Positions 1,136 to 12,529 of a DNA stretch of 12,529 bases are shown here, piece after piece. Source of the stretch: Amoebophrya sp. AT5.2 (taxonomy: Eukaryota; Sar; Dinophyceae; Syndiniales; Amoebophryaceae). The stretch is from contig RXOD01005776.1 in NCBI GenBank assembly GCA_005223375.1, forward strand, positions 1 to 12,529. The letters run 5' to 3'. Numbering within the stretch: the stretch's first letter is position 1; every line of letters starts with the position of its first letter. Both the position numbers and the translations under genes were made by a program. A model generated the notes under the pieces. The model searched no databases. It was not told the origin of the DNA and worked only from the letters and a program-made list of their open reading frames with translations.

Positions 1136-4100
1136 ATGACGGCAGCCCCGCCGCCACAGGGCCGCGCCGGCGGCGTGGAGGTCGTGGAGCCGTCTGATGA
1201 GGGCGGTAGAGACCCACACCCACACGTGCACGCCAAGAAGTCTGCAAGAACCACATCTGCTTCATACCAGGCTGCGGAGCACAACGCCAAGGCCATCATT
1301 GTGTACAATTTGTGCTCCGCGATCTCGATCGGAACGGCGCTGGGTCCCTTCTTCGAGAAATACGTGCTGCAGGTGCAGCAGGAGTTAGGATCGAGAGTCA
1401 GCTCGTCCGATCCCGATCTTCTCGATAGCCGAGAACACCCGAACAAGAAATACAGTCTGCTAGTCGGATCATGTCGTGGTCTTTTGAAGACGGTCTACAT
1501 TGTGGTCCTCGCTGTCACAAACATGGCATGGGCATCGCTGGCGCTGCGTGCTCTTGAAGCCTCACTGGGACGCTCTAGTATAGCTTTAGCATGCCAGCCT
1601 CTGTCTACTTTCTCAGTCTCAAAGAAGTCTCTGGCCCTGGCTGTCAAGGAAGATAAGCATAGATAAGGACGAGTCGGGCCAGTCTTGACAACATCGGGAC
1701 GCGGGCACGGCGAACGCTACCGTAGGGTTCTGTGAGTCGCTGTTCGGCTATGTCGGGACCAGGTGGTAAGTTGGCATACTTAGCTGGTATGTAAGAAAGT
1801 ATTACAACGGCATGGCTTCTCTTGTTGGAGGCGGCTGACGTCGACTGCGTTCAGGCGCTCTGAGTCTCAACCGGCCGGCGCGAGGAGGCGGGTCCCTCGC
1901 CGGAGATGAAGAGCCTTTGGGAGGTAGATAGAAGTGCTCGGGGAAAGTCGGGGGACTGATCATGATAGGGCGACCTGCTGAAAGCAGGGCAAAGGAGGGC
2001 GCTTAGGCTTGTTAGGGTGGCGATTGGCTCGATCAGCTATGTACTTATCCCCACTTACCACTTGGCCCCAACATATGGGCATTTCGCAGCTGCTGGTGTT
2101 CTGGCCGGTGGGGCTGATTGTGGACCGGCAGCCTGAGCGGCGGCACGAGCTCGCGCGGGCAGTCGGGACGATCGGCCTCGGCGCGGTGGCGTTGCTCGGC
2201 TCCGCACTGTACAGCGACTACCTGCCCTTCATCTACGTCGCGATGGTCGTCCTCGGCGTCTTCTACGAGGGCCTCACCTCCAGCTCGGAAACCCTCTTCG
2301 CAGACAGCGTGCAGGAGCTCGCGAACGAAGCAGGTAAATCTAAGTAAACGTTAACGTAAACTTCTGCTGTCATCGATAGATAAACGTTCAACACCTCGTC
2401 CAGGACCAGCAAAATGATGTGATGATGTAGGTCATCCCGATCCCGTTCAACATTACCACACACTTCTACACAAGATTCTGCCGACGCCAAGGCGCAGATT
2501 TCCGCGAACTGGTTCACGAAGAAGATGGCTGCGTCCTACTCCGGCGTGGCGCTGTCGCCGCTGCTGGGCGTGTTGTGCGTGTTGTACTTCCGGCGCTACG
2601 TGTCCCCGCACGTGCTGCTGACTCGCGACCAGTTCGCGCACGAGATCGGCGTGCCCGCCGTGCCCGACGCGGACTCGGCCGAGGCTGCCACCGTGAACGT
2701 TTATTGGAACATGGGTCTGCTGCACTTCATCCTCCTCCTCGGCCTCATCCTCATCCTGCCCGCCGTCTGGCGCATCTCCGGACTCAAGTCCATCGGCAGG
2801 ATCAAGAACAAGCCCGCGAGTCCATCGTCCGGGGGCGCCCTGCTGAGTCAAGACTTGAGCGAGCCGCTGGTCTCGAAGGTGCCTTCACCCACGACCCCCG
2901 GTACAACTACAACTACCAGCAGTTCGAAGGTGCCGTATGTGATTGCCGTGGCGGACTTCGCGCAGTGCATCGGGGCGGGCATGACCTTCAAGTACTTCAA
3001 CCTCTTCTTCATCCAGGACTTTGGCTTCGGGCCCACGGAGATCTGCGCGCTGCAGATCGTTTATCCCCTGTGCATGGTGATCACTGTGGAGTTCTGCAAC
3101 CGGGTCTTTTTGCCTTTACTGAAGAACTCGCGCGCGAAGGTTTCCATGCTGTGCCGCCTCATCGCCGTCCTAGGGCTGTGGCTCATCGGCGGCGCGTACC
3201 CCTTTCAGATGGTGGAGAGGGACGGAAGTGGCAGCATAACTTCCGCCAGCTCCGCCGAGGAGGCCAGTACGTCGCGCTCGCTGCTTGCGGGAGCCGCCGC
3301 AGCGCGGTCCTCGTCGTCGTTGACAATTTCTACGCAGTCGCCTGCTGCAGGAGCGAGAAGCACTTCTGCGGCCGCAGATGTAGTATCAGGTGGAGAGTCC
3401 TCAGCAACGGAGCTGAGTGGCACAGTCCCGCCCAATATCATGAATCAGTACAAGGATTACGTGATTCCGTCAACAGCGGTTATGTTCAGGGACGGCAAAC
3501 TGCCTCAGTCAAACATCATCGTTCGAGGTCAAGCACACGACGACGGACAATCATCAGCACCGGGGCGCAGCGATTCGAGCGGGGATAGAAGTATGAGTAT
3601 CCTCCAGATCAACCCATTCACTTGTGCGGGTCTGCTCGTCGAAGAGAGCGCGGTTCGGAGGAAAGCGCGCGGGACAAGAAACAAGCAGTTCTCGTCCTTC
3701 GGCATTTTCGGAGTCGGGAGCAGGCGGCGGAAAACGAAGCAGGAGCTCCCGGCACAAAGATCGCAGACAGCAGTAGATGAATCTCTACAACGCGGCCGCG
3801 CAGCTGGGGACGCTGGCGCTCCATCAATTCGTGCGCATGCTTTCGACGCCTCCGGCGCGTTGTCTTCTGTGCAGCTGCAGGAGCCGCCGGCGGATGGGTT
3901 GGAGGCCACCAGGAGCGCGTCCGATCGGGGTTCGTCATCCTCACCACCATTAAACGTCGGACCACGTTCACCCCTGCCGCCGCCGAGCTTTTTTTCCATG
4001 AGAACCAGCGCTATCGCTTCCATCACGTACTGCGAGCCGGCGGTTCTTTTCATTTTCCTCCTGACTGGGTCCTTCGCGATGGCCACGCCGGGATTCGACA

Positions 4101-4318
4101 AGAGCATATTGATGGACCACGTGGCCACGGAAAACCGCGGCAAGTGGAACGCTCTCCTGTCGTTTAACGGGTTTGCCTTCCGCGGCTCGGCTCTGTTTGG
4201 CGGCGTGCTGGCCGACGGCCACTTCGGCGACTACCGCCCAGCCTTCACCTACGCGGCAGGCATCTACATCCTCAGCTCGCTCCTGTACGCCCCGCTCGTG
4301 CAGCTGGTGAAAAAGTAG
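1136..4318 (+). CDS. MFS membrane transporter, four exons, with long loop between spans 9 and 10
   Basis: A polytopic membrane protein of about 806 residues if exons 1136-1410, 1700-1748, 2081-2333 and 2475-4318 are joined; the sum is in frame. It has the major facilitator layout. Span 1 includes IIVYNLCSAISIGTALGPFF. Span 2 is assembled across two introns (VGFCESLFG + ISQLLVFWPVG) and is followed by the loop motif LIVDRQPERR. Spans 3-4 are in exon 3, and spans 5-12 in exon 4. Exon 4 shows ILMDHVATENRGKWNALLSF before span 11 and GGVLADGHFGDYR after it, matching the second-half MFS loop. Residues about 439-700 form a Ser/Ala/Arg-rich hydrophilic insert between spans 9 and 10, normally a short turn. 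The substrate cannot be told from sequence. Intron 2 has a canonical alternative (GT at 1752 to AG at 2089) that stays in frame but drops ISQ and shortens span 2. The start is the first ATG after the acceptor at 1111. Confidence 0.82.
1411..1699 (+). mobile_element. MFS intron 1: non-canonical, inverted-repeat-ended (introner-like)
   Basis: The first 17 bases (1411-1427, starting TCCCGATCTTCTC) pair with the last 17 (1683-1699, ending ACATCGGGA) at 13 of 17 positions. Cutting exactly at these ends joins TCC-GA to C-GCG and keeps the frame (SSD-AGTANATVGF). The ends are not GT-AG. A canonical acceptor is hard to place: the frame of the next exon has a TGA at 1686, and there is no AG between it and the conserved NATVGFCESLFG segment. 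Confidence 0.6.
1749..2080 (+). mobile_element. MFS intron 2: introner with 23-bp terminal inverted repeats
   Basis: The 5' repeat 1749-1771 (TATGTC, then GGGACCAGGTGGTAAGT) is matched in reverse complement by 2053-2075 (ACTTACCAC, then TTGGCCCCAACATA), with about 19-20 of 23 positions pairing. The flanks share GGC (1746-1748 and 2078-2080), a possible short target-site duplication. Removing 1749-2080 leaves ESLFG-ISQLLVFWPVG, which restores the spacing expected in MFS span 2. The 5' repeat is nearly identical to that of the intron at 8981-9346 in the FkbM gene. The interior shows no coding sequence. Confidence 0.75.
2334..2474 (+). other. MFS intron 3 (GT-AG)
   Basis: The donor GCAG|GTAAAT at 2334 and acceptor ACACAAG at 2474 give a phase-1 join, ANEA-DSADAKAQIS, in frame with exon 4. 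Weak inverted similarity exists at the ends: GCAGGTAAATCT against the complement of AGATTCTGC just past the acceptor. This may be an old introner. The interior contains short TGATG-rich sequence. Confidence 0.65.
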
Positions 4319-4337
4319 CTCGCTCCTGTACGCCCCG
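4274..4337 (+). repeat. 21-bp direct duplication spanning the MFS stop codon
   Basis: The 21 bases at 4274-4294 (beginning AGCTCGCTCCTGTACG) recur exactly at 4317-4337. The stop codon TAG (4316-4318) overlaps the second copy, so the last coding codons have been copied into the 3' flank. Confidence 0.9.
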
Positions 4338-4342
4338 GACGA

Positions 4343-4411
4343 TGATGCATGGTGATGTGATGTATGGTGATGTGAAGTTAAAGAACTAGAACGTGATGCA
4401 TGGTGATGTGA
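4343..4411 (+). repeat. Small minisatellite, three TGATGyATGGTGATGTGA units
   Basis: Near-identical 18-base units lie at 4343-4360, 4358-4375 (overlapping the first by three bases) and 4394-4411. Units 2 and 3 are each followed by AGTTrAAG. The tract is just downstream of the MFS gene and has no coding role that I can see. Confidence 0.8.
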
Positions 4412-4677
4412 AGTTGAAGTGTTTAGCGCACAGTACAAACAGGAGAACTCATGTATGCAGTTGCAGATCATCTTGTTTGATACAAACTCGTCGCGATTTC
4501 ATGGATCTGGATTGATTCTGAATTTCTTGCCCACAGGGTAGCAGGATGACACGACGGATCTAGGAACACCTCCTTGCTTCAGGCCCTTGAAGGTCGTGGT
4601 TTTGATTTGCTTGTCGATAGTTCTTCTTTTCTAAAGAATTTTTCAACCAGGCATGACCGCATGGAAGCCCGCGATCT

Positions 4678-4726
4678 CTTCTTGCTGGCAAGAAGCGATG
4701 AGTTCAACTTCAAGCATTTTTTGAAC
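4678..4726 (+). repeat. Two adjacent hairpins
   Basis: CTTCTTGC (4678-4685) and GCAAGAAG (4688-4695) are a perfect 8-bp inverted repeat with a 2-base loop. It is followed by GTTCAA (4702-4707) pairing with TTGAAC (4721-4726) around a T-rich loop. They could fold in RNA. I cannot tie them to a known RNA family. Confidence 0.55.
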
Positions 4727-4794
4727 GCTGTATCTATGTTCTTGGAGAATGTTCTTGGTCATTGATCTATGGACGCGAGGATTCTCTGGGCTTG
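4698..4794 (+). repeat. Dispersed repeat, copy A
   Basis: 4698-4730 matches 7600-7626 perfectly apart from a 6-base insertion (CTTCAA). After a divergent stretch, 4757-4794 again resembles 7635-7672: GGTCAT, then TATGGA, GAGGATTC and GGCTTGC in the same order. Copy A runs directly into the spliced-leader relict. Confidence 0.8.
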
Positions 4795-4814
4795 CCGTAG
4801 CCATTTTGCTCAAG
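4795..4814 (+). other. Dinoflagellate spliced-leader relict
   Basis: The bases CCGTAGCCATTTTGCTCAAG equal the conserved dinoflagellate spliced leader (from its second base) except that one G of the TTTTGG run is missing. The leader is known to be trans-spliced onto nuclear mRNAs, and genomic relicts mark genes that returned through reverse transcription. Here it is followed by ACCACC, not by a GT donor, so it is not an intact SL RNA gene. It lies on the same strand as, and 185 bases upstream of, the intronless RING gene. Confidence 0.8.
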
Positions 4815-4999
4815 ACCACCGCAGCTTTCAAGTTTAACATGTTGATCGTATCGTAACGACAGTTCGCTTTACGTCTAAGAGACAAAGAACTCGTTAGCAC
4901 GGCTTCAGTTGATCGCGTTCGCGTCGTAAACACAAGGGTCAGAAGATTCATTGCACAAAGAAAACCAACTATACGAGAGATCACTAGCAACTAAACTAG

Positions 5000-6331
5000 A
5001 TGCCGGGGCAGAAGCGCGCAGCCGATCCAAGCGTCGCGTCGCCGTCTGATGCAAAGAAAAGCAAGCACGAGGACGATCTGTTGCAGATCTCGCAGGTGCA
5101 GCGATTTCAAGTGCTTTTTCGGGCTTACCAAGCAGATGCAGAAGCAGCAGCTTCCAGCTCGTCGCGATCTTCTTCCGACACCACTTTGGGGCCCGCGGGC
5201 GTGCCTTATCTTCCATATGAAGGGACTAGATTGAATGCGGTTCTGGATGATTGGGTACAACAACTCACGAGATTCAAGGAAGCGGATAACGGCACGAAGA
5301 AATTGGCGCCACAGGTTCACGCGCAGTTGGACGCTCTTGCGGCCGCCGTTCATCATGTGCTGGAGACGCTGTACTGCGGTGCCACTGCCGAAGAAAACAC
5401 TCCGCTGGACTCGCTGGCTTTCGAGGACCTTCTTTCAGATCTCCGACCAGAGCCGCAAAGTGAGCGAATTAGCTCAGCCGAAAAGCAGTTCGAGGACGGG
5501 CTAGCCGTACCCCTCCAGCAGTGCGAGGATATACTGCCGCCGCATGGTACAGGGAAAGAAGCGCGGATGCGGTGGCAGTCGCATTTTCTAGCGGAAGTGG
5601 CGTGCTCGACGGCGACGTTGTCAGATGACGGAAAGGACATGAAACCACTCTACCGAGCCTTAATCCAAAGCGTTCGCGACAGCGGCCAAGATACGTGCGC
5701 GTGCTGCCAAGTGTTCGATATGGATGCGACTGATAACGACATCTGCAAGCCGGCTCTCCTGCATCTCGGGGTCGTTTGTCCTCCTGTCGTTGTGCCGGCT
5801 TGTGGGCATGCAGTTTGCACGGAATGCTTCGAGGAGCTCGCAATTAATCCGTTTCCTGATGCAGGCCAGCGCGGATTCGGTGGGTGTGTGATTTGTGACG
5901 CAGCATACGACTGGAGCAACGGGATGCTTTTATTTCTGGCAGATGTCGTTGCGCTTTGGCACAGTCAATCTTTCTCCGGCGTTGTCGAGTTCAAGGAAGA
6001 AAATCGGGCGACGGAAACGACGGACTTCGCTGCGGCAGTGCTGCGATCATTGCAGGCGGCAGGACTTGACAACATGTTCCGAGAGGACATCGAAGAAGAG
6101 GGAGAGCATGGCGAGATGCTTTCGGCGGCAAAGTACGTTATGGAGAAAGTGTGGGAAACAGCCGAAAGCTTAGAAGTAGCTGTTCCGCCGAAAGAGTGGC
6201 GGGAGGCGGCTGTAGAACGCGCTGCGGAGTTGATGGCTGACGGGTTTGAAGGAGATGATGAAGACGCGGAGGATGAAGACGCGGATGACGAAGACGCGGA
6301 AGATGAAGAGCAGGATGATGACGAGACCTAA
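5000..6331 (+). CDS. RING-finger protein with acidic tail, single exon
   Basis: A 443-residue protein from one uninterrupted exon. The N-terminus has basic clusters resembling a bipartite nuclear signal (QKR and KKSK, residues 4-22). Residues 233-299 form a C3HC4 RING-type zinc site: C233, C236, C268, H270, C273, C276, C296, C299, with the loop between the second and third ligands longer than usual. RING domains typically recruit E2 enzymes in ubiquitin ligases; ligase activity here is inference. The C-terminus (about 415-443) is almost wholly Asp/Glu/Ala. The start is well supported: TAG at 4997-4999 is in frame and directly precedes ATG 5000. Other genes in the window have one to three introns; this one has none, and it sits behind a spliced-leader relict, so I read it as a retrogene. 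Its stop codon is one base from the ATG that opens the GDT1-like frame. Confidence 0.85.
   Translation: MPGQKRAADPSVASPSDAKKSKHEDDLLQISQVQRFQVLFRAYQADAEAAASSSSRSSSDTTLGPAGVPYLPYEGTRLNAVLDDWVQQLTRFKEADNGTKKLAPQVHAQLDALAAAVHHVLETLYCGATAEENTPLDSLAFEDLLSDLRPEPQSERISSAEKQFEDGLAVPLQQCEDILPPHGTGKEARMRWQSHFLAEVACSTATLSDDGKDMKPLYRALIQSVRDSGQDTCACCQVFDMDATDNDICKPALLHLGVVCPPVVVPACGHAVCTECFEELAINPFPDAGQRGFGGCVICDAAYDWSNGMLLFLADVVALWHSQSFSGVVEFKEENRATETTDFAAAVLRSLQAAGLDNMFREDIEEEGEHGEMLSAAKYVMEKVWETAESLEVAVPPKEWREAAVERAAELMADGFEGDDEDAEDEDADDEDAEDEEQDDDET
6257..6316 (+). repeat. Four 15-bp tandem units coding the acidic tail
   Basis: Units at 6257-6271, 6272-6286, 6287-6301 and 6302-6316 follow the pattern GAyGAAGACGCGGAn and encode DEDAE-like pentapeptides (residues 420-439). 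The array is in frame, so copy-number change would only lengthen or shorten the tail. Confidence 0.9.
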
Positions 6332-6332
6332 C

Positions 6333-7020
6333 ATGACGGTGCTCTCAGGTACTTCTTACAATCGTTGTAGCGAAGATCTAGAGCAGATGAGATGTACTAG
6401 ACGGGGACAGCGGAGGAGAAGGAGATGATAACGTATACAACGTCTTAACGTTTTGATTAAACCAACTCTACTCATCTCTCTGAAACCAAGTTCAGAAAAA
6501 TCTCAACGAACAACTACGAACTGCAACTCACTGCACCGCAGCTGTAATCGGGTTGCTTGTTCCAACGCTGCTTTCACCAACGCTGTCACATTGGCGGGCG
6601 ATCGTTTTGTTCTTTTTCTTCGGACTTGGCGCGATTAAGGATGCGCTGCAGATGTATTCCAAGGGGGAGGGTGACGGCGTTAGTGACGAGCTGGCTGAAA
6701 CCGAGAAAGAACTCACTGACGCTGACATCGTGCGGAAGGTCCTTACTTCTCGTCACTGAGCTAGGTTGATAAACAATTTGTTTTTGTTTGAAATTGAATA
6801 CGAAATCAAAGAAAGATTTATTTATCAAAGCAAATCTTTTCCCCGATGCTCCTCGCTGATGATGTAAGCTCACTATCACTAAAAACAGCAAAAGTCCGCG
6901 GTATCTCTGGTCGGGGCCATTTTTGCGATGACGTTTCTGGCCGAATGGGGCGACAAGTCACAAGTACCGACAGTTGCGATGGGGGCTGCGCGGGATGTTG
7001 CGGACGTTATTCTCGGGGCG
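6333..7020 (+). CDS. GDT1/TMEM165 (UPF0016) family transporter, 5'-truncated and 3' end unresolved
   Basis: Three exon pieces join in frame: 6333-6348 (MTVLS plus one base), 6542-6738 and 6889-7020. The junctions are CAG|GTACTT to CCGCAG (intron 6349-6541) and AAG|GTCCTT to AAACAG (intron 6739-6888). The product reads MTVLSAVIGLLVPTLL, then a membrane span with FFFFGLGAIKDAL, a charged linker, and the family hallmark FLAEWGDKSQ followed by VPTVAMGA. GDT1 proteins are Golgi or organelle-membrane Mn/Ca/H transporters with two copies of an E-x-G-D-K/R-S/T motif; only the second copy is here. The first half, normally just before MTVLSA, is absent from the window and is replaced by the RING gene. 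After GGGGCG|GTGAGA at 7021 the next span is not recovered cleanly. This is either a broken copy or a gene whose 5' exons lie outside normal expectation. Confidence 0.72.
6812..6839 (+). repeat. Hairpin in GDT1-like intron
   Basis: AAAGATTT (6812-6819) and AAATCTTT (6832-6839) form a perfect 8-bp inverted repeat with a 12-base loop, inside the A/T-rich intron 6739-6888. Confidence 0.6.
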
Positions 7021-8018
7021 GTGAGATTTATTCATGGATGTCTTACACGGTCTGCGCCTCAGGACGATTCCTCCTTTTCCTTGCGCAAAAAGCGTACCGA
7101 TCGAGAGAGAGTGAGTGGTTTTGCTTTTCTTTGTGCTCCTCTATTTGACCTTCCTGCGATCTGATTTACACTTCATTCCTTCTGTCCTACTTTTATTATC
7201 TCTTCTCGGGCAGGGGCAGTGAGGGAAATCTAAGGCGTCAGCGCCGCAAGATTAACATCGTCATCTCTTCTCGGACCTACTTCGTTGCACTTGGTTGTAA
7301 GTTTTGAGAATTGAGCTGCGCTTTGGGCGACGAAAAGTGTGAGCTCTGTAGAGGGGACCGATTGAAAATGCAACTTCTTGAATTCCGCCATCAACCCGGT
7401 CCTTTATTGATGGATGTGATCTACTACGAGCCCTGATTCACCGAACACGCACTAAAGCATTAAGCGCGATCATCCCTGAAGTAAAGAGACAGACCGTTTC
7501 AGATGTTGGCTTGGTCCCGAGCGATTCGCTTTGCGCAAAAGAAAGGTCGTTGGTAGATTGATGGGGGACGCCTCTTTCATCTGCCCTGGGTTCTTTGCAA
7601 TGAGTTCAAGCATTTTTTGAACGCTGCTCCTCTCGGTCATCTAGTATGGAGAGGATTCCCTTTTTGGCTTGCGTACTTATCTGGCAAAAGCTACGCTCAG
7701 TTATTTTCGAAGTTTTATCTCTACTGCTCGTCTTCGTTTCTTAACGTACGCGATTCGAAGCCCGCAATTCCCCCCCCCTGTCATATGCGTTCGTCTCGTT
7801 TCGCGTCGTTGCCTTGCGGTGATCGTCCTCATGTTGTAATGAAGCGTTTTTCCGACTTGGGAAATCTAAAAGCATGAGCATCGATACTCGATCAACTCGG
7901 TTGTACGAGACGAGGTCCGTCTGATGTCTGTTACTGTTTACGTTTACCTTTACCAAGATCAAGGCATTAGTTTGAGTTTCTTCCTGTCTGCGGCGCGAGA
8001 CCCACGAGGAAGAGCAAG
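7021..8018. other. Region without a confident gene
   Basis: Directly after 7020 the frame still reads ILGAVRFIHGCLTRSA, and a neighbouring frame reads YTVCASGRFLLFLAQK. Both vaguely resemble the GDT1 span that should follow, but in different frames. At 7259-7297 the translation INIVISSRTYFVALG could be a last GDT1 span, ending near a GTAAGT at 7300. 7600-7676 is dispersed repeat copy B. A run of eight or nine C lies near 7770. I see no other gene. Confidence 0.45.
7600..7676 (+). repeat. Dispersed repeat, copy B
   Basis: 7600-7626 (ATGAGTTCAAGC, then TTTTTTGAACGCTG) matches copy A at 4698-4730 except for a 6-base gap. 7635-7672 matches 4757-4794 with small gaps. The sequence just past it (CGTACTTATCTGGCAAAAG) is a very loose counterpart of the spliced-leader relict next to copy A. 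Confidence 0.78.
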
Positions 8019-11000
8019 ATGGTGTCACTGCAGCTGCTCTGCTGCCGGGTATTGGGCCACTGGTTTTCCGTTTCCCAATCCCTTTCAGCCCTTGCACTCC
8101 TTACCGATTCTTCCGCTGCGCCGACAGAGGACGGACGGGGGGCGCCCAAGATCATGAATTGGTGGGACTACTTCGGCCCGGTTCCGACCGCTCTCCTCGC
8201 GACAGGATCTATATCTGCTTCGTCTTCATCTGGCTCATCTGGTGAAAAACTGTTTTCGCGCCTGGACGTTCTCGACCGCCTCACGTGGGAAAAGCTCGCC
8301 GGCATGCGGGGTTTGAGTGAGGCGCGGCAGATGAAGAAAGTGATCGACCACGACATCAAGCCACCCTTCGAGAAGTGCACCAACCGGCTTGCCACGTACG
8401 ACGCCACACGGATGGTCGGGGACGCCAAGGGAAACCAGTGGTCGCAAGTACTGACAGGTTCTTAATCTTATGAAAAAATTTGCAAAAATGCTTTCTGGTT
8501 GTGGTTGCAGTTCTTCTTCTTGCTGATAATCATCCTCTTGAAATGGCCCCCCATTTGTTGAGGATAATGTATCTAGACATAGAAGTTAGAAGTAGAGCGC
8601 ACTGGGTGGTCCGGTGAGCGCATGAAAGGCGGCGCGCCACCGCTAAAGCATATTCTTTCACAATAAAGAAACAACAAAAATAATTGAAAATCCGTCGTCC
8701 AGGTTGCCAGCGAGTTTCACCTGATGTCGTGTGGCGACCCCCGGCTGGCGGGCGCTTCCGACGACCGCGGCAACAACGATTTTGCGCAAAACTCCGAGCA
8801 TCCCTCGTTCGCCGACGCGGAGCTGGTTGTCCCCACTGTGCACGGGTTCAATCTAGCGATCTACGCTGACTTCACCTCCCGCGACCGCCTCATCAGTTCC
8901 TGCCTCGCGTTCTCCGGCGAGTGGGAGCAGCAGACGTCGTTCCTGATCAAAACCCTGCTCCAACAGTACGCCAACGAGAATATGGCAGGACCAGGTGGTA
9001 AGTCGCCAAGAAGTGGTATAAAAAAGATGGAATTTTGGGGCGCTCCCTTACTTTGGTGGTCCACCTCAGAAGAGTAAGAGAGCTTGAGTCCTAGGAGAAG
9101 CGCGTGCTTGCTGCGATTGGCAGGCCTGGCACTGTTGCGCCCTACAGCTAACAGGAGTACAGTGCCACTCTATGCCTCCTCTTTTCCCCTACTTTCGCGC
9201 TCGATCGATTTCAGAGCGCCTCGCTCGGCACTCGCCACGAGCACGACCCAAGTGGGAACCCAACACTACACGATCATGATGCACACAGCTGTTTACTATG
9301 TTTGTACATCCACTCTCTCACGACTTAGTCATCTGGTCCCTTCATAGAGGAGGACACCCTGTTCATCGACGCTGGGGCGAACATGGGCTACTTCTCCCTG
9401 CTCGCGGCTTCGAATGGCTTCGACGTTCTGTCGGCGGAGATGAGCGTACAGAACGCGCTGCACCTGGCGAGGTCGGCGGCCCTGCACAACGAAGAGCATA
9501 TCGCCGACAAGATCACCTTGTACCTCCTTGCGCTGTCGGCAGCGGACGGAGTAGACGTAGACGAAGAAGATGTAGAAGAATGGCCGTTGACCGCGGTGAT
9601 GAACGATTTTTCGGACAACAGCGGACTGTACGAGGTCTTTTCCGTACTGGACGAGGCGAACGCAAAGCTGCGACAGGCGTTCTCGCCCAGAACAGAGGGC
9701 TACGGACAGGCCTGGACCGTGAAGAAAGCCCTGGACGAAGTCTTGCGCGACTACGTGAGGCGGAAAGCGAGGACGAAGGAGTTTCCAGGGGGGAGTTCGA
9801 ATCACGGAGCAGGGTCGCCTAAAAGTAGAAGTAGCGGCGCGCAGGACGAGGAGCCGAAAGACGTCGAGGAAGCAGATCAAGATGAGAGAGAGAAAGAGTT
9901 GTCCTCTAGTACGTTTTCGACGATCCAGTGGCGGCGGTTGCTGCGGAACGCCGACGGCGAGCTGTTGTATCCTGACGAAGATGACGAAGATGACGAAGTA
10001 GATGAATCGGAGCCACAGCCAGAGGACCCGGAAGATGGACGACAGCAGCAAGCCGAGTCCGAGAACGGCTCCGGTACAAGAAGTAAGGACCCGCCCGACG
10101 GCTTTTGCAACTCCTTTCCCGCTCGGCAGTTTGAGTTCGTGGACTATTTCTGGCGCAAGTGGAACCGCCGCTTCCGTTGCGGGTGGAAGCAGAGGACGCT
10201 GAAGATCGTGCTCAAGCTAGATCTGGAGAAGTCGATCTGCGAAGCGCTGTCCGGCTTCCGCGACTTTCTGCACGCTGCCGTGGACAGTAAGTCGGGCCTG
10301 TTCCGGGTTTCTCCACCTTCTCGATTTGGCACAAACCCAGATGAAGAGCTGTTCGTGAAGGTCGAGCTGCTCGCCATTTTCGCCGAGGGTGATCACATGG
10401 ACGTGCCCGGCCGGTTCTTCGAGCCGTCCAGATTCTTCCACAACCGCACCTCGCCGCTGGCCGCCGTTCCCGATGAATCTTCGACTTCCGAGCCGGCTCC
10501 CACGGAGCAGTCCGGGAAGAACTGCTTCTACGCGCTGCGGGACTTGCTGGGCACTGGGAAGAATGGCCGGGGCGGCCGGTTCTACGGCGGGAGCTACGAG
10601 AGCGACAACGTGTCGGGGGAGCTCGCCTGGATCAACCAGAGGTACATGCCGGCAGGCGTCGCGTGGATGCTAGTGCGGCACGCACGGGAATGGCAACCTC
10701 TCAGCTGCATCACACAAAAAGAAATGTCCTTCTCGCTCCCCGAAAGCGGTACTGGGGGGACCGATCGTAACGTGAGCGCGAGTTTGGAAAGATGGGGAGA
10801 CGAACTACTGGCGAGAAAACTGCGGAGGTGGAGGAAGCTGCCGAAGAAGGAAGGAGTGGAGGTAAAAAGCGATGTTGTATCGGAGAGAATAAGTCGCGGT
10901 CCCCAGCAAAGCTCGATCCCAATTCCAATTCGTAGGAGCGGCCGCCACGTGGGCGTGCTAGAGCACGCGTTTGGCTTCGATATGCGCGAGGAGCGGAAGC

Positions 11001-11413
11001 GCGGAAACGGCACCCACTGGGTGCGGGTTCCCTACGCCGACGTGGACACTCAGCTGCACAGAATTAAAGCAGAATTTCGCACAGCAATCATGGAGGACTA
11101 TCACTACGATCAAGATGCTGGAGCCGTAACATTTGCTTTGTGCTGCTTGTGGCTACTCGCTGCAGATGTCCCCCAAAAAACTGGACTGCCAGAGGACGAT
11201 CATGAAGTGTTCAGAAAGATCAGCATTCCAAAACCAAATCCAATGGCTGATATAGCTAGATGTAGTAGATCTAGTAGTAGTAGGAGGACGAGGACGAGCA
11301 GGAGGAGCACGACCACGAGCTACTGCTCCTGCACCAGTACACTGATTATAAAAAAAGACTTCTGGTGGCGCTGGTTCTGCATTTCCATTTGCACGTACTT
11401 ACCGACTGTATAA
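8019..11413 (+). CDS. FkbM-type methyltransferase-like protein with large acidic insert
   Basis: Exons 8019-8447, 8703-8978 and 9350-11413 give about 922 residues. Using the canonical donor at 8998 and acceptor at 9347 instead adds a few residues and also stays in frame. The first 30 or so residues are hydrophobic and resemble a signal peptide (LQLLCCRVLGHWFSVSQSLS). Residues about 236-250 carry the S-adenosylmethionine-binding motif FIDAGANMGYFSL. LKLDLE at 523-528 matches the later FkbM acidic motif. In the family these motifs lie much closer together; here they are separated by about 280 residues including a poly-Asp/Glu segment near 441-466. The family methylates sugars and other small molecules; the substrate here is unknown. 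The last 60 or so residues (from about 11230) are encoded by simple AGTAG/GAGGACG-like sequence and may not be genuine coding sequence, so the real stop may be upstream. Confidence 0.75.
8448..8702 (+). other. FkbM intron 1 (GT-AG) containing a hairpin
   Basis: CAA|GTACTG to GTCCAG|GTT gives the phase-0 join NQWSQ-VASEFHL. The apparently better donor ACAG|GTTCTT ten bases downstream is out of frame. Inside, 8529-8546 and 8551-8568 form an imperfect 18-bp inverted repeat (14 of 18 pairs) around CCCC. Confidence 0.65.
8981..9346 (+). mobile_element. FkbM intron 2: introner of the same family as MFS intron 2
   Basis: The 5' end 8981-9003 (TATGGCA, then GGACCAGGTGGTAAGT) is identical at 21 of 23 positions to the 5' end of MFS intron 2. 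The 3' end 9323-9346 (ACTTAGTCATCTGGTCCC, then TTCATA) is its approximate reverse complement. The flanks GAGAA (8976-8980) and GAGGA (9347-9351) look like a target-site duplication. Removing one copy gives YANE-EDTLFIDAGAN. A GT-AG option inside the element ends (8998-9347) is also in frame. Confidence 0.78.
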
Positions 11414-11438
11414 GTAGCTCCGCAGCTCAGCTGAAGGC
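11414..11438 (+). promoter_or_regulatory. Candidate trans-splice acceptor for the C69 gene
   Basis: The FkbM frame stops at 11413 and the next ATG is at 11439. AGCTCCGCAG ending at 11425 lies between them and resembles the CGCAG upstream of the MFS gene. Such a short gap suits polycistronic transcription split by spliced-leader addition. Confidence 0.4.
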
Positions 11439-12529
11439 ATGCCGTCTGCTCGCACCAGCACGCCCAGCGCGGCGCGACGTTCGCGCAAAGGGAATTATCG
11501 TGTCCCCCTGCTCCTGACTTGTGCCGTTTATTTTCATCCTCACGACCGCGGCGCGTCTGCGTGCACGAATTTGATTGTGACTCCCGGCGCGAGTGTGAAT
11601 GGGTCCACGATCTACTCCTACGCGGCCGATTCCGCGGGGCTGTACGGCAGCCTTACCACCTATCCCAGACGAAAAAACATTCCCCCGGGCAGCACGAAGG
11701 ACATCTACGACTGGGACTCTGGGCTTTTCCTCGGCCGCATTGAGGAGCCGGCGGAGACCTACAACGTGGTCGGCAACATGAACGAGTTTCAGCTCACGAT
11801 CGGGGAGACCACGTTCGGCGGCGTAGGCGTCCTCACTAAGGGCCAGAAGCACGCCAAGATGGACTACGGCAACCTGATCTGGACCACGCTGCAACGGGCC
11901 AAAAACGTGCAGGAGGCGATCGGCGTGATGACGGACCTGGTGGCGAAGTACGGCTACGCGAGCGAGGGAGAGTCGTTCACACTCGCGGACCCGACAGAAG
12001 TGTGGATTCTGGAGATGATCGGCAAGGGTGAGTTCGGGTTCGGCGCCGTGTGGGCCGCGGTGCGGGTCCCGGACGGCCACGTCTCGGGCCACGCGAACCA
12101 AGCGAGAATCACGACCTTTGACGTGAACGACACCGCGAACGTGCGGGCAGCGCCAGACGTGGAGGAGTTCGCGAAAAAGGTACTTCCTCCGCATCGTCCA
12201 ATATATTTATTTGATTGGCGTCACCGTCATGGTCATGAACATGTTGATCAAGCACAAGCTCCTCGGCCTAGTAGCTTTCGTGCCGAGTGTGATCATCCTG
12301 ATCGATTCTTGGCTTTGGTCACACAGTCTTTGCTTTTTTTAAGCATCTTCGCCTTTTTCCATACCATTACCAAATGATCGTCGCCCGTGCGTGGTGTTGT
12401 GAGATGGTGTCGTCATCGGCCATCAACCTCGGCTGCCCCCGCACCCGCACAAAAATACCAAAAATTTTTTAAAGGTCGGATTGTACGACCCCAGCAAGGG
12501 CGAGGTGTTGCAGCCGCGTGCGGCCGCAA
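11439..12529 (+). CDS. Secreted C69-family dipeptidase, 3' partial
   Basis: Exon 11439-12179 (247 residues) continues from 12475 (VGLYDPSKGEVLQP) to the window end. Family C69 enzymes are N-terminal-nucleophile dipeptidases. Visible family blocks, in order: ACTNLIVTPGAS with the presumed nucleophile Cys42; NGSTIYSYAADSAGLYG; NMNEFQLTIGETTFGG; YGNLIWTTLQRAKNVQEAI; YGYASEGESFTLADPTEVWI; and VRVPDGHVSGHANQARI. Residues 17-41 include a short hydrophobic stretch (VPLLLTCAVYF) and end in ASA just before Cys42. A signal peptidase cut there would expose the cysteine as the new N-terminus, as the mechanism requires. A lysosome-like or secreted location is inference. The end of the protein lies beyond the window. 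Confidence 0.88.
12180..12474 (+). other. C69 intron (GT-AG) with matching junction repeats
   Basis: AAAAAG|GTACTT to TTAAAG|GTCGGA gives the phase-0 join FAKK-VGLYDP, which restores the family sequence. Both junctions read AAAGGT, so the intron is bounded by a 6-base direct repeat. I see no clear terminal inverted repeat. Confidence 0.75.

Follow-up and report, generated by a model that had tools for sequence, protein, structure and literature searches.

Short inverted-repeat elements that probably act as introners in coding sequence of an Amoebophrya-like genome

How two introns in unrelated genes come to begin with nearly the same letters, and how such introns would leave the transcript, is the question raised by contig RXOD01005776.1, whose 12,529 nucleotides were analysed at full length (the window). 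One of the introns interrupts a gene for an MFS transporter and the other a gene provisionally labelled FkbM-like. An earlier note, made from the letters alone, had taken both for a non-autonomous element with inverted-repeat ends that inserts and is spliced out, and had guessed that it belongs to the introner class reported from Amoebophrya. The best overall explanation, to which we assign a probability of roughly 0.8, is that a family of non-autonomous elements resembling miniature inverted-repeat transposable elements (MITEs) acts as introners in the genome of an Amoebophrya-like lineage, that is, of a syndinian dinoflagellate.

The 23-base left ends of the two introns, TATGTCGGGACCAGGTGGTAAGT (1749-1771) and TATGGCAGGACCAGGTGGTAAGT (8981-9003), are identical at 21 of 23 positions, exactly as the earlier note had counted. 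Both introns also close, as it had claimed, in an approximate reverse complement of the family end, with 2 mismatches in the MFS copy (2053-2075) and 6 in the FkbM-like copy (9324-9346). Of the two intervals that had been proposed, 8981-9346 is the element alone, while 1749-2080 holds the element at 1749-2075 and, as its last 5 bases (2076-2080), the right target-site duplication. The parts of the two copies are as follows, TIR standing for terminal inverted repeat.

1744..1748, + strand: left target-site duplication TCGGC of the MFS copy, its 5-bp length set from 56 copies
1749..2075, + strand: copy 1 of the putative introner, 327 bp, its interior called sense relative to its gene (from the TIR pair, interior matches to the family and orientation)
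1749..1771, + strand: left TIR of copy 1, containing GGTAAGT (from end searches)
2053..2075, - strand: right TIR of copy 1, with 2 mismatches to the family end (from end pairing)
2076..2080, + strand: right target-site duplication TGGGC, 4/5 identical to the left one (from the sequence letters)
8976..8980, + strand: left target-site duplication GAGAA of the FkbM-like copy (from the sequence letters)
8981..9346, - strand: copy 2 of the putative introner, 366 bp, its interior antisense relative to its gene (from the TIR pair, interior matches to the family and orientation)
8981..9003, + strand: left TIR of copy 2 (from end searches)
9324..9346, - strand: right TIR of copy 2, with 6 mismatches (from end pairing)
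9347..9351, + strand: right target-site duplication GAGGA, 4/5 identical to the left one (from the sequence letters)

Both introns are copies of one non-autonomous, MITE-like family of TIR elements. In the window's own assembly (50,716,278 bases in 2759 contigs) there are 114 exact occurrences (62 + 52) of the 16-base core, where 0.02 would be expected; it is thus far from confined to the two introns, the outcome that the earlier note had named as speaking against it. The 23-base end TATGNNGGGACCAGGTGGTAAGT occurs 907 times (460 + 447) at up to 3 mismatches; the backward-read control gave 0 in both searches, and a chance similarity of the two introns is ruled out by these counts. From the loci of the 23-base end searches and the window, 62 elements could be paired and 31 strong ends stayed unpaired; 8 loci from the exact-core search, most of them the same places, were excluded from this set. 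The partner end lies within 3 mismatches in 41 of the 62 paired elements, from which a rough total of about 700 elements, with a minimum of about 450, can be estimated. Less than 200 nt of contig remains beyond 17 of the 31 unpaired ends, so further copies are hidden by assembly breaks; 28 of the 31 show the family interior, and three show none (L067, L089 and L093, of which the contig end truncates the first two).

Six of the 62 paired elements, with one end out of register, were dropped, leaving 56 clean copies with a mean length of 442 nt (229-668) and a GC content of 0.57; at these lengths they are too short for a transposase gene. The target-site duplication is 5 bp long, flanks matching at 0.89 for length 5 vs 0.20-0.38 for lengths 2-4 and 6-9, and it is exact in 35 of the 56 copies (0.05 expected), so that the many core matches with short flanking duplications for which the earlier note had proposed to look do exist. 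The majority sequence is about 430 nt long with the ends TATGRNGGGACCAGGTGGTAAGTG, and the majority ends of the copies read TATGAAGGGACCAGGTGGTAAGTG and TATGGTGGGACCAGGTGGTAAGTG; since the copies were retrieved by their ends, the apparent conservation of these is partly selected. Identity to the majority sequence averages 81% (71-87%). With the ends masked, the interiors of all 56 copies are linked by similarity into a single component, and 983 of its 983 links are consistent with one orientation per copy. The interiors of the two window copies had been described as unalike, which stands for the pair (best E 0.03) and fails for the family, each matching other copies (best E 3e-17 and 1e-11); they looked unrelated partly because the two copies are opposite in orientation relative to their genes. 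A search of 247,781 bases of copy flanks, partly overlapping, for other TIR families with a 5-bp duplication gave 22 candidates vs 19 in a mirror control, at least 3 of the 22 being the same family, and a search of a viral collection gave 87 matched stretches (80 of them listed, with one match each), which were taken as chance.

Insertion occurs with the 5-bp target duplication, in either orientation and often in coding exons. Coding potential was scored with a codon model built from the window's own reading frames (2146 codons, among them those flanking the FkbM-like copy). Of 54 testable copies, 34 show a coding signal in a single frame across both flanks, compared with 229 of 880 positions drawn at random from these loci (p 5e-8), and the 34 gene-oriented copies divide into 14 sense and 20 antisense (p 0.39). 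When the element and exactly one duplication are deleted, the host frame and conserved proteins are restored. With left and right frames chosen freely, the flanks are in phase in 25 of 26 scorable copies at a flank length of 120 nt (28 more being too weak) and in 24 of 24 at 150 nt (29 weak), and both window genes are in frame after removal. The junction was scored base by base in 33 copies: the MFS copy and those of the 34 gene-oriented copies that remained once two with 3 or 4 duplication mismatches had been set aside. A side observation concerns codon phase: 17 of the 33 insertions are in phase 2 and 8 in each of the other phases (p 0.04), a weak excess that could stem from target base composition.

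Some of the proteins joined in this way are recognisable. Seven of the 35 that were made were picked as such for comparison with solved structures, and all seven match across their junctions, with a gap at 0 of 8 junctions and gaps elsewhere in several of the alignments: Pol epsilon (two junctions, E 7e-132), axonemal dynein 6, a UBE2G2-type E2, cystathionine beta-lyase, a MAPK6-type kinase, PKG/PKA-R (a cyclic-nucleotide-dependent kinase or regulatory subunit) and a GH2 glycosidase, in which the stretch at the junction is weak by itself (i-E 0.13). At E 1e-3 a Pfam family was found for 14 of 18 joined proteins scanned and none for those of the FkbM-like gene, L011, L013 and L017; antisense copies are also spanned by domains, for instance UQ_con (L026) and Aa_trans (L062). 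A Pol epsilon query matched the assembly in three pieces, which lie together on contig C411 with breaks at the two elements of that locus (L029), both elements sharing one orientation relative to the gene; no uninterrupted Pol epsilon was found in the 50.7-Mb assembly, which may be incomplete. The Pol epsilon of Amoebophrya sp. A25 is gapless across the first junction, and it is the best-scoring of 784 matches, at 87% identity, in a comparison of similar-length proteins from which A120 could be missing; at this identity the host is not A25 itself. Since this conserved essential gene has no other copy that was found, its elements are most likely removed before translation; and the conservation of the host genes, among them Pol epsilon with two copies in the single locus found for it, argues for precise removal from the transcript. 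It is very probable, on this evidence, that the element is an introner excised exactly from the mRNA.

What marks the cut is a separate matter. Exact removal leaves six possible intron start registers across the duplication, and GT-AG stands at the exact cut in 0 of 33 copies at each of them, which rules out a GT and an AG both borrowed from the duplication. Ordinary spliceosomal splicing, with the donor GTAAGT in the left TIR, an acceptor at a nearby AG and a few extra codons left in the message, is the alternative that survives best, and we regard it as improbable. It would account for the GTAAG found within the first 30 nt of 28 of the 34 gene-oriented copies; in the FkbM-like copy a donor G/GTAAGT and an acceptor CATAG/ (the slash marking the cut) can be read by eye in frame with added codons, and introners that leave extra codons are known in Aureococcus, according to the part of PMC9860276 consulted. 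However, the last 30 nt of the element hold no AG in 26 of the 34, an in-frame stop-free AG is available in 20 of 33 copies, no better than for the two wrong phases (21 and 18, where stops were not filtered out), and added codons would break conserved stretches that join without gaps; a donor inside the TIR is accordingly not favoured. The pyrimidine share on the 3' side (0.52 and 0.54 vs 0.46 and 0.48) is at about the level expected of one fixed element read from either strand and was rejected as a signal. It is difficult to see how internal directional signals would fit an element that lies in both orientations. A search for U1 small nuclear RNA gave no match, but its control was positive in 0 of 14 genomes, so that the negative carries no weight.

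Whether the terminal ends are the decisive signal for removal we judge to be an even question. Removal by a route other than ordinary GT-AG recognition by the spliceosome is a tentative idea, and the same caution attaches to a fuller proposal, in which a DNA transposon's inverted repeats would also serve as the signal for splicing: a dedicated or modified machinery would recognise the paired ends in the RNA and take out everything between the duplications, in either orientation and without GT-AG. In favour of the ends as guides to removal, the TIRs are the feature that looks alike from either strand; their pairing can form a stem bringing the two duplications together, and they usually put GGTAAGT near the 5' end. 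The symmetric ends could be recognised by a relaxed spliceosome or by another machine. Mobility would presumably come from a transposase supplied in trans. The arms do pair, at a mean of 19.8 of the outer 24 positions, and in 49 of 55 copies the minimum-energy fold predicted for the element pairs them from one end to the other.

Several observations weigh against the family being introners removed exactly, or against their ends being the signal. Pairing within a copy (19.77 of 24 positions) equals that obtained with arms exchanged among copies (19.76), so arm covariation, which would have argued for a working hairpin, is absent; the arms still pair in 46 of 55 copies when the interiors are shuffled, and the stem may therefore be a mere relic of the TIRs. 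An AG does close 13 of 33 copies at one of the registers, where 3 of 33 have GC-AG or GA-AG. A clear coding signal on both flanks is lacking in 20 of the 54 testable copies; the 34 gene-oriented copies were selected on the assumption of an in-frame join; and L059, with 3 mismatches in its assumed duplication, is the sole out-of-phase copy of the 26 scorable ones. Frame restoration alone is expected also for fresh disruptive insertions, so the case rests on gene integrity, from which, and not from RNA, splicing is inferred. The assembly may be incomplete (50.7 Mb vs 88-127 Mb for the four genomes in the consulted part of PMC12005148), and it may lack an uninterrupted second copy of Pol epsilon. 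No match in the assembly was found to MULE, DDE_Tnp_4 or DDE_3, the three transposase families tested for an autonomous partner, with controls positive in 3, 1 and 3 of 14 genomes, respectively.

Two further explanations would do without splicing. Removal at the DNA level in an expressed nucleus or life stage, like that of the internal eliminated sequences of ciliates, also predicts exact restoration, TIRs with a target duplication and independence of orientation. We nevertheless consider it very unlikely: syndinians are not known to have such a process, and the assembly contains the interrupted Pol epsilon and not, as far as was found, an uninterrupted one. The related introns of A25 and A120 were moreover called from RNA-seq junctions on assembled genomes, as reported in the passages of PMC7789003 consulted. 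The least credible account is that of recent gene-disrupting MITE insertions (pseudogenes) or assembly chimaeras without any splicing: an insertion in an open frame always leaves the flanks in phase, and stretches of sequence repeated in inverted form, close to the element or within its locus (L010 at about 1123-1683, L028 at about 1289-1943, L032 at about 2106-2389), are perhaps amplification chimaeras or foldbacks, but insertions lie in conserved single genes, two of them in Pol epsilon, for which no second locus was found, the copies are enriched and not depleted in coding sequence, and with a diverged duplication in 12 of the 34 gene-oriented copies, an average distance of 19% from the majority sequence (part of which may predate insertion) and flanks that are still open, many copies look old.

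The reading of the family as introners also agrees with what can be said of the host. A sequence that we take to be the dinoflagellate spliced leader has 18 exact occurrences in the assembly and 50 when up to 2 mismatches are allowed, with 0 in the control. At L187 (contig C139:709-729) an exact spliced leader is directly followed by GT, as expected for a spliced-leader RNA gene. An Amoebophrya-like lineage is the natural reading of the host, in view of the spliced leader and of the best Pol epsilon match being that of A25, and the guess of the earlier note at the class fits both.

It has been reported by Farhat et al. in 2021 (PMC7789003; the comparisons here concern the consulted passages of this and the other papers) that the introners of A25 and A120 are non-canonical and form strain-specific families, their inverted repeats measuring 8-20 nt and their direct repeats 3-5 nt; U1 was undetected there, and two putative transposases were found in A25 only, which the authors read as ruling out general transposase-mediated mobilisation. 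The present family fits this class in the features compared, its borders being predicted: like those introners, its copies are repeated introns of a non-canonical kind that carry an inverted repeat at each end and a short direct repeat where they meet the exons, without fixed splice dinucleotides or an internal transposase, and like the A120 repeats they begin with TAT. The ends of the family match neither published motif, that of A120 being TAT and seven less-conserved bases with at least three A at its end, and that of A25 being TTA and two purines with G at its end. The inverted repeats are slightly longer than the published 8-20 nt, and the direct repeat has one length, 5 bp, abutting the ends, whereas that of A25 and A120 measures 3-5 nt and varies in position. 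Both orientations relative to genes are seen here, a point of which the searched passages of PMC7789003 made no mention. In another strain, mainly canonical introns were described in 2025 (PMC12005148), the odd elements being limited to a subset of the genus. The DNA-transposon introners of Gozashti et al. 2022 (PMC9860276; Symbiodinium and Florenciella included) are similar in having TIRs and target-site duplications in some families, insertion in exons and a usually unchanged mRNA length; unlike the present copies (GT-AG in 0 of 33 under exact removal), the examples given there carry splice sites or take them from the place of insertion. Similarly, the nonconventional introns of euglenids (PMC6221363) lack canonical borders and have ends joined by pairing, a MITE origin being suggested there and the removal mechanism being given as unknown, but that lineage is unrelated and its pairing is of +4 to +6 with -8 to -6, in contrast to TIRs longer than 20 nt and a 5-bp duplication here. 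The 16-base core had no match in the literature searched, and the main-text passages of the introner papers on dinoflagellates and Amoebophrya, as distinct from their supplementary family tables, do not describe the family.

The remaining features of the two host genes, all on the forward strand, are as follows.

2081..2333, + strand: MFS transporter exon 3' of the element, exact excision giving the predicted joined translation ...CESLFGISQLLVFWPVGLIVDR
2334..2474, + strand: ordinary GT-AG intron of the MFS gene, predicted by eye from the frame only (from sequence and reading frames)
8448..8702, + strand: ordinary GT-AG intron of the FkbM-like gene, predicted by eye from the frame only (from sequence and reading frames)
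9352..11413, + strand: remainder of the FkbM-like frame, KDTLFIDAGANMGYFS... (from reading frames and joined translation)

The joined MFS protein matches MFS_1 of Pfam at E 1.3e-5 with 24.7 bits, under the curated cut-off of 33.4. Its only match in the protein collection, P0123, still includes the tail of the element and so comes from the same or nearly the same organism, giving no independent support for the MFS junction. The FkbM-like junction is gapless against a relative, P0001 (61% identity), whose gene probably lacks an intron at this place, although its record has no exon structure. The FkbM label is weak, PF05050 being borne only by the distant match P0002 (32%, E 1e-4).

Elsewhere in the window, a frame of peptidase family C69 (PF03577, E 5e-38) occupies 11418-12377. 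At 4795-4814, upstream of the frame 5000-6331, the dinoflagellate spliced-leader sequence minus one G (CCGTAGCCATTTTGCTCAAG) is found, possibly the relict leader of a retroposed mRNA. An identical 22-nt word, TTCAAGCATTTTTTGAACGCTG, stands at 4709-4730 and 7605-7626, each time about 270-400 bases upstream of a coding frame, with no further occurrence in the assembly at up to 2 mismatches.

The consulted part of PMC7789003 leaves open how Amoebophrya introners without splice sites are removed. The present family sharpens this question by offering fixed, scorable ends, a fixed 5-bp duplication, conserved host genes and both orientations, the last of which means that any directional internal signal, whether branch point, pyrimidine tract, donor or acceptor, must work from both strands. 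The family may also add a lineage to those with such elements, which are confined to a subset of the genus according to the consulted part of PMC12005148. If the TIRs do serve as the splicing signal, intron removal would here be guided by the end of a transposon and not by splice sites.

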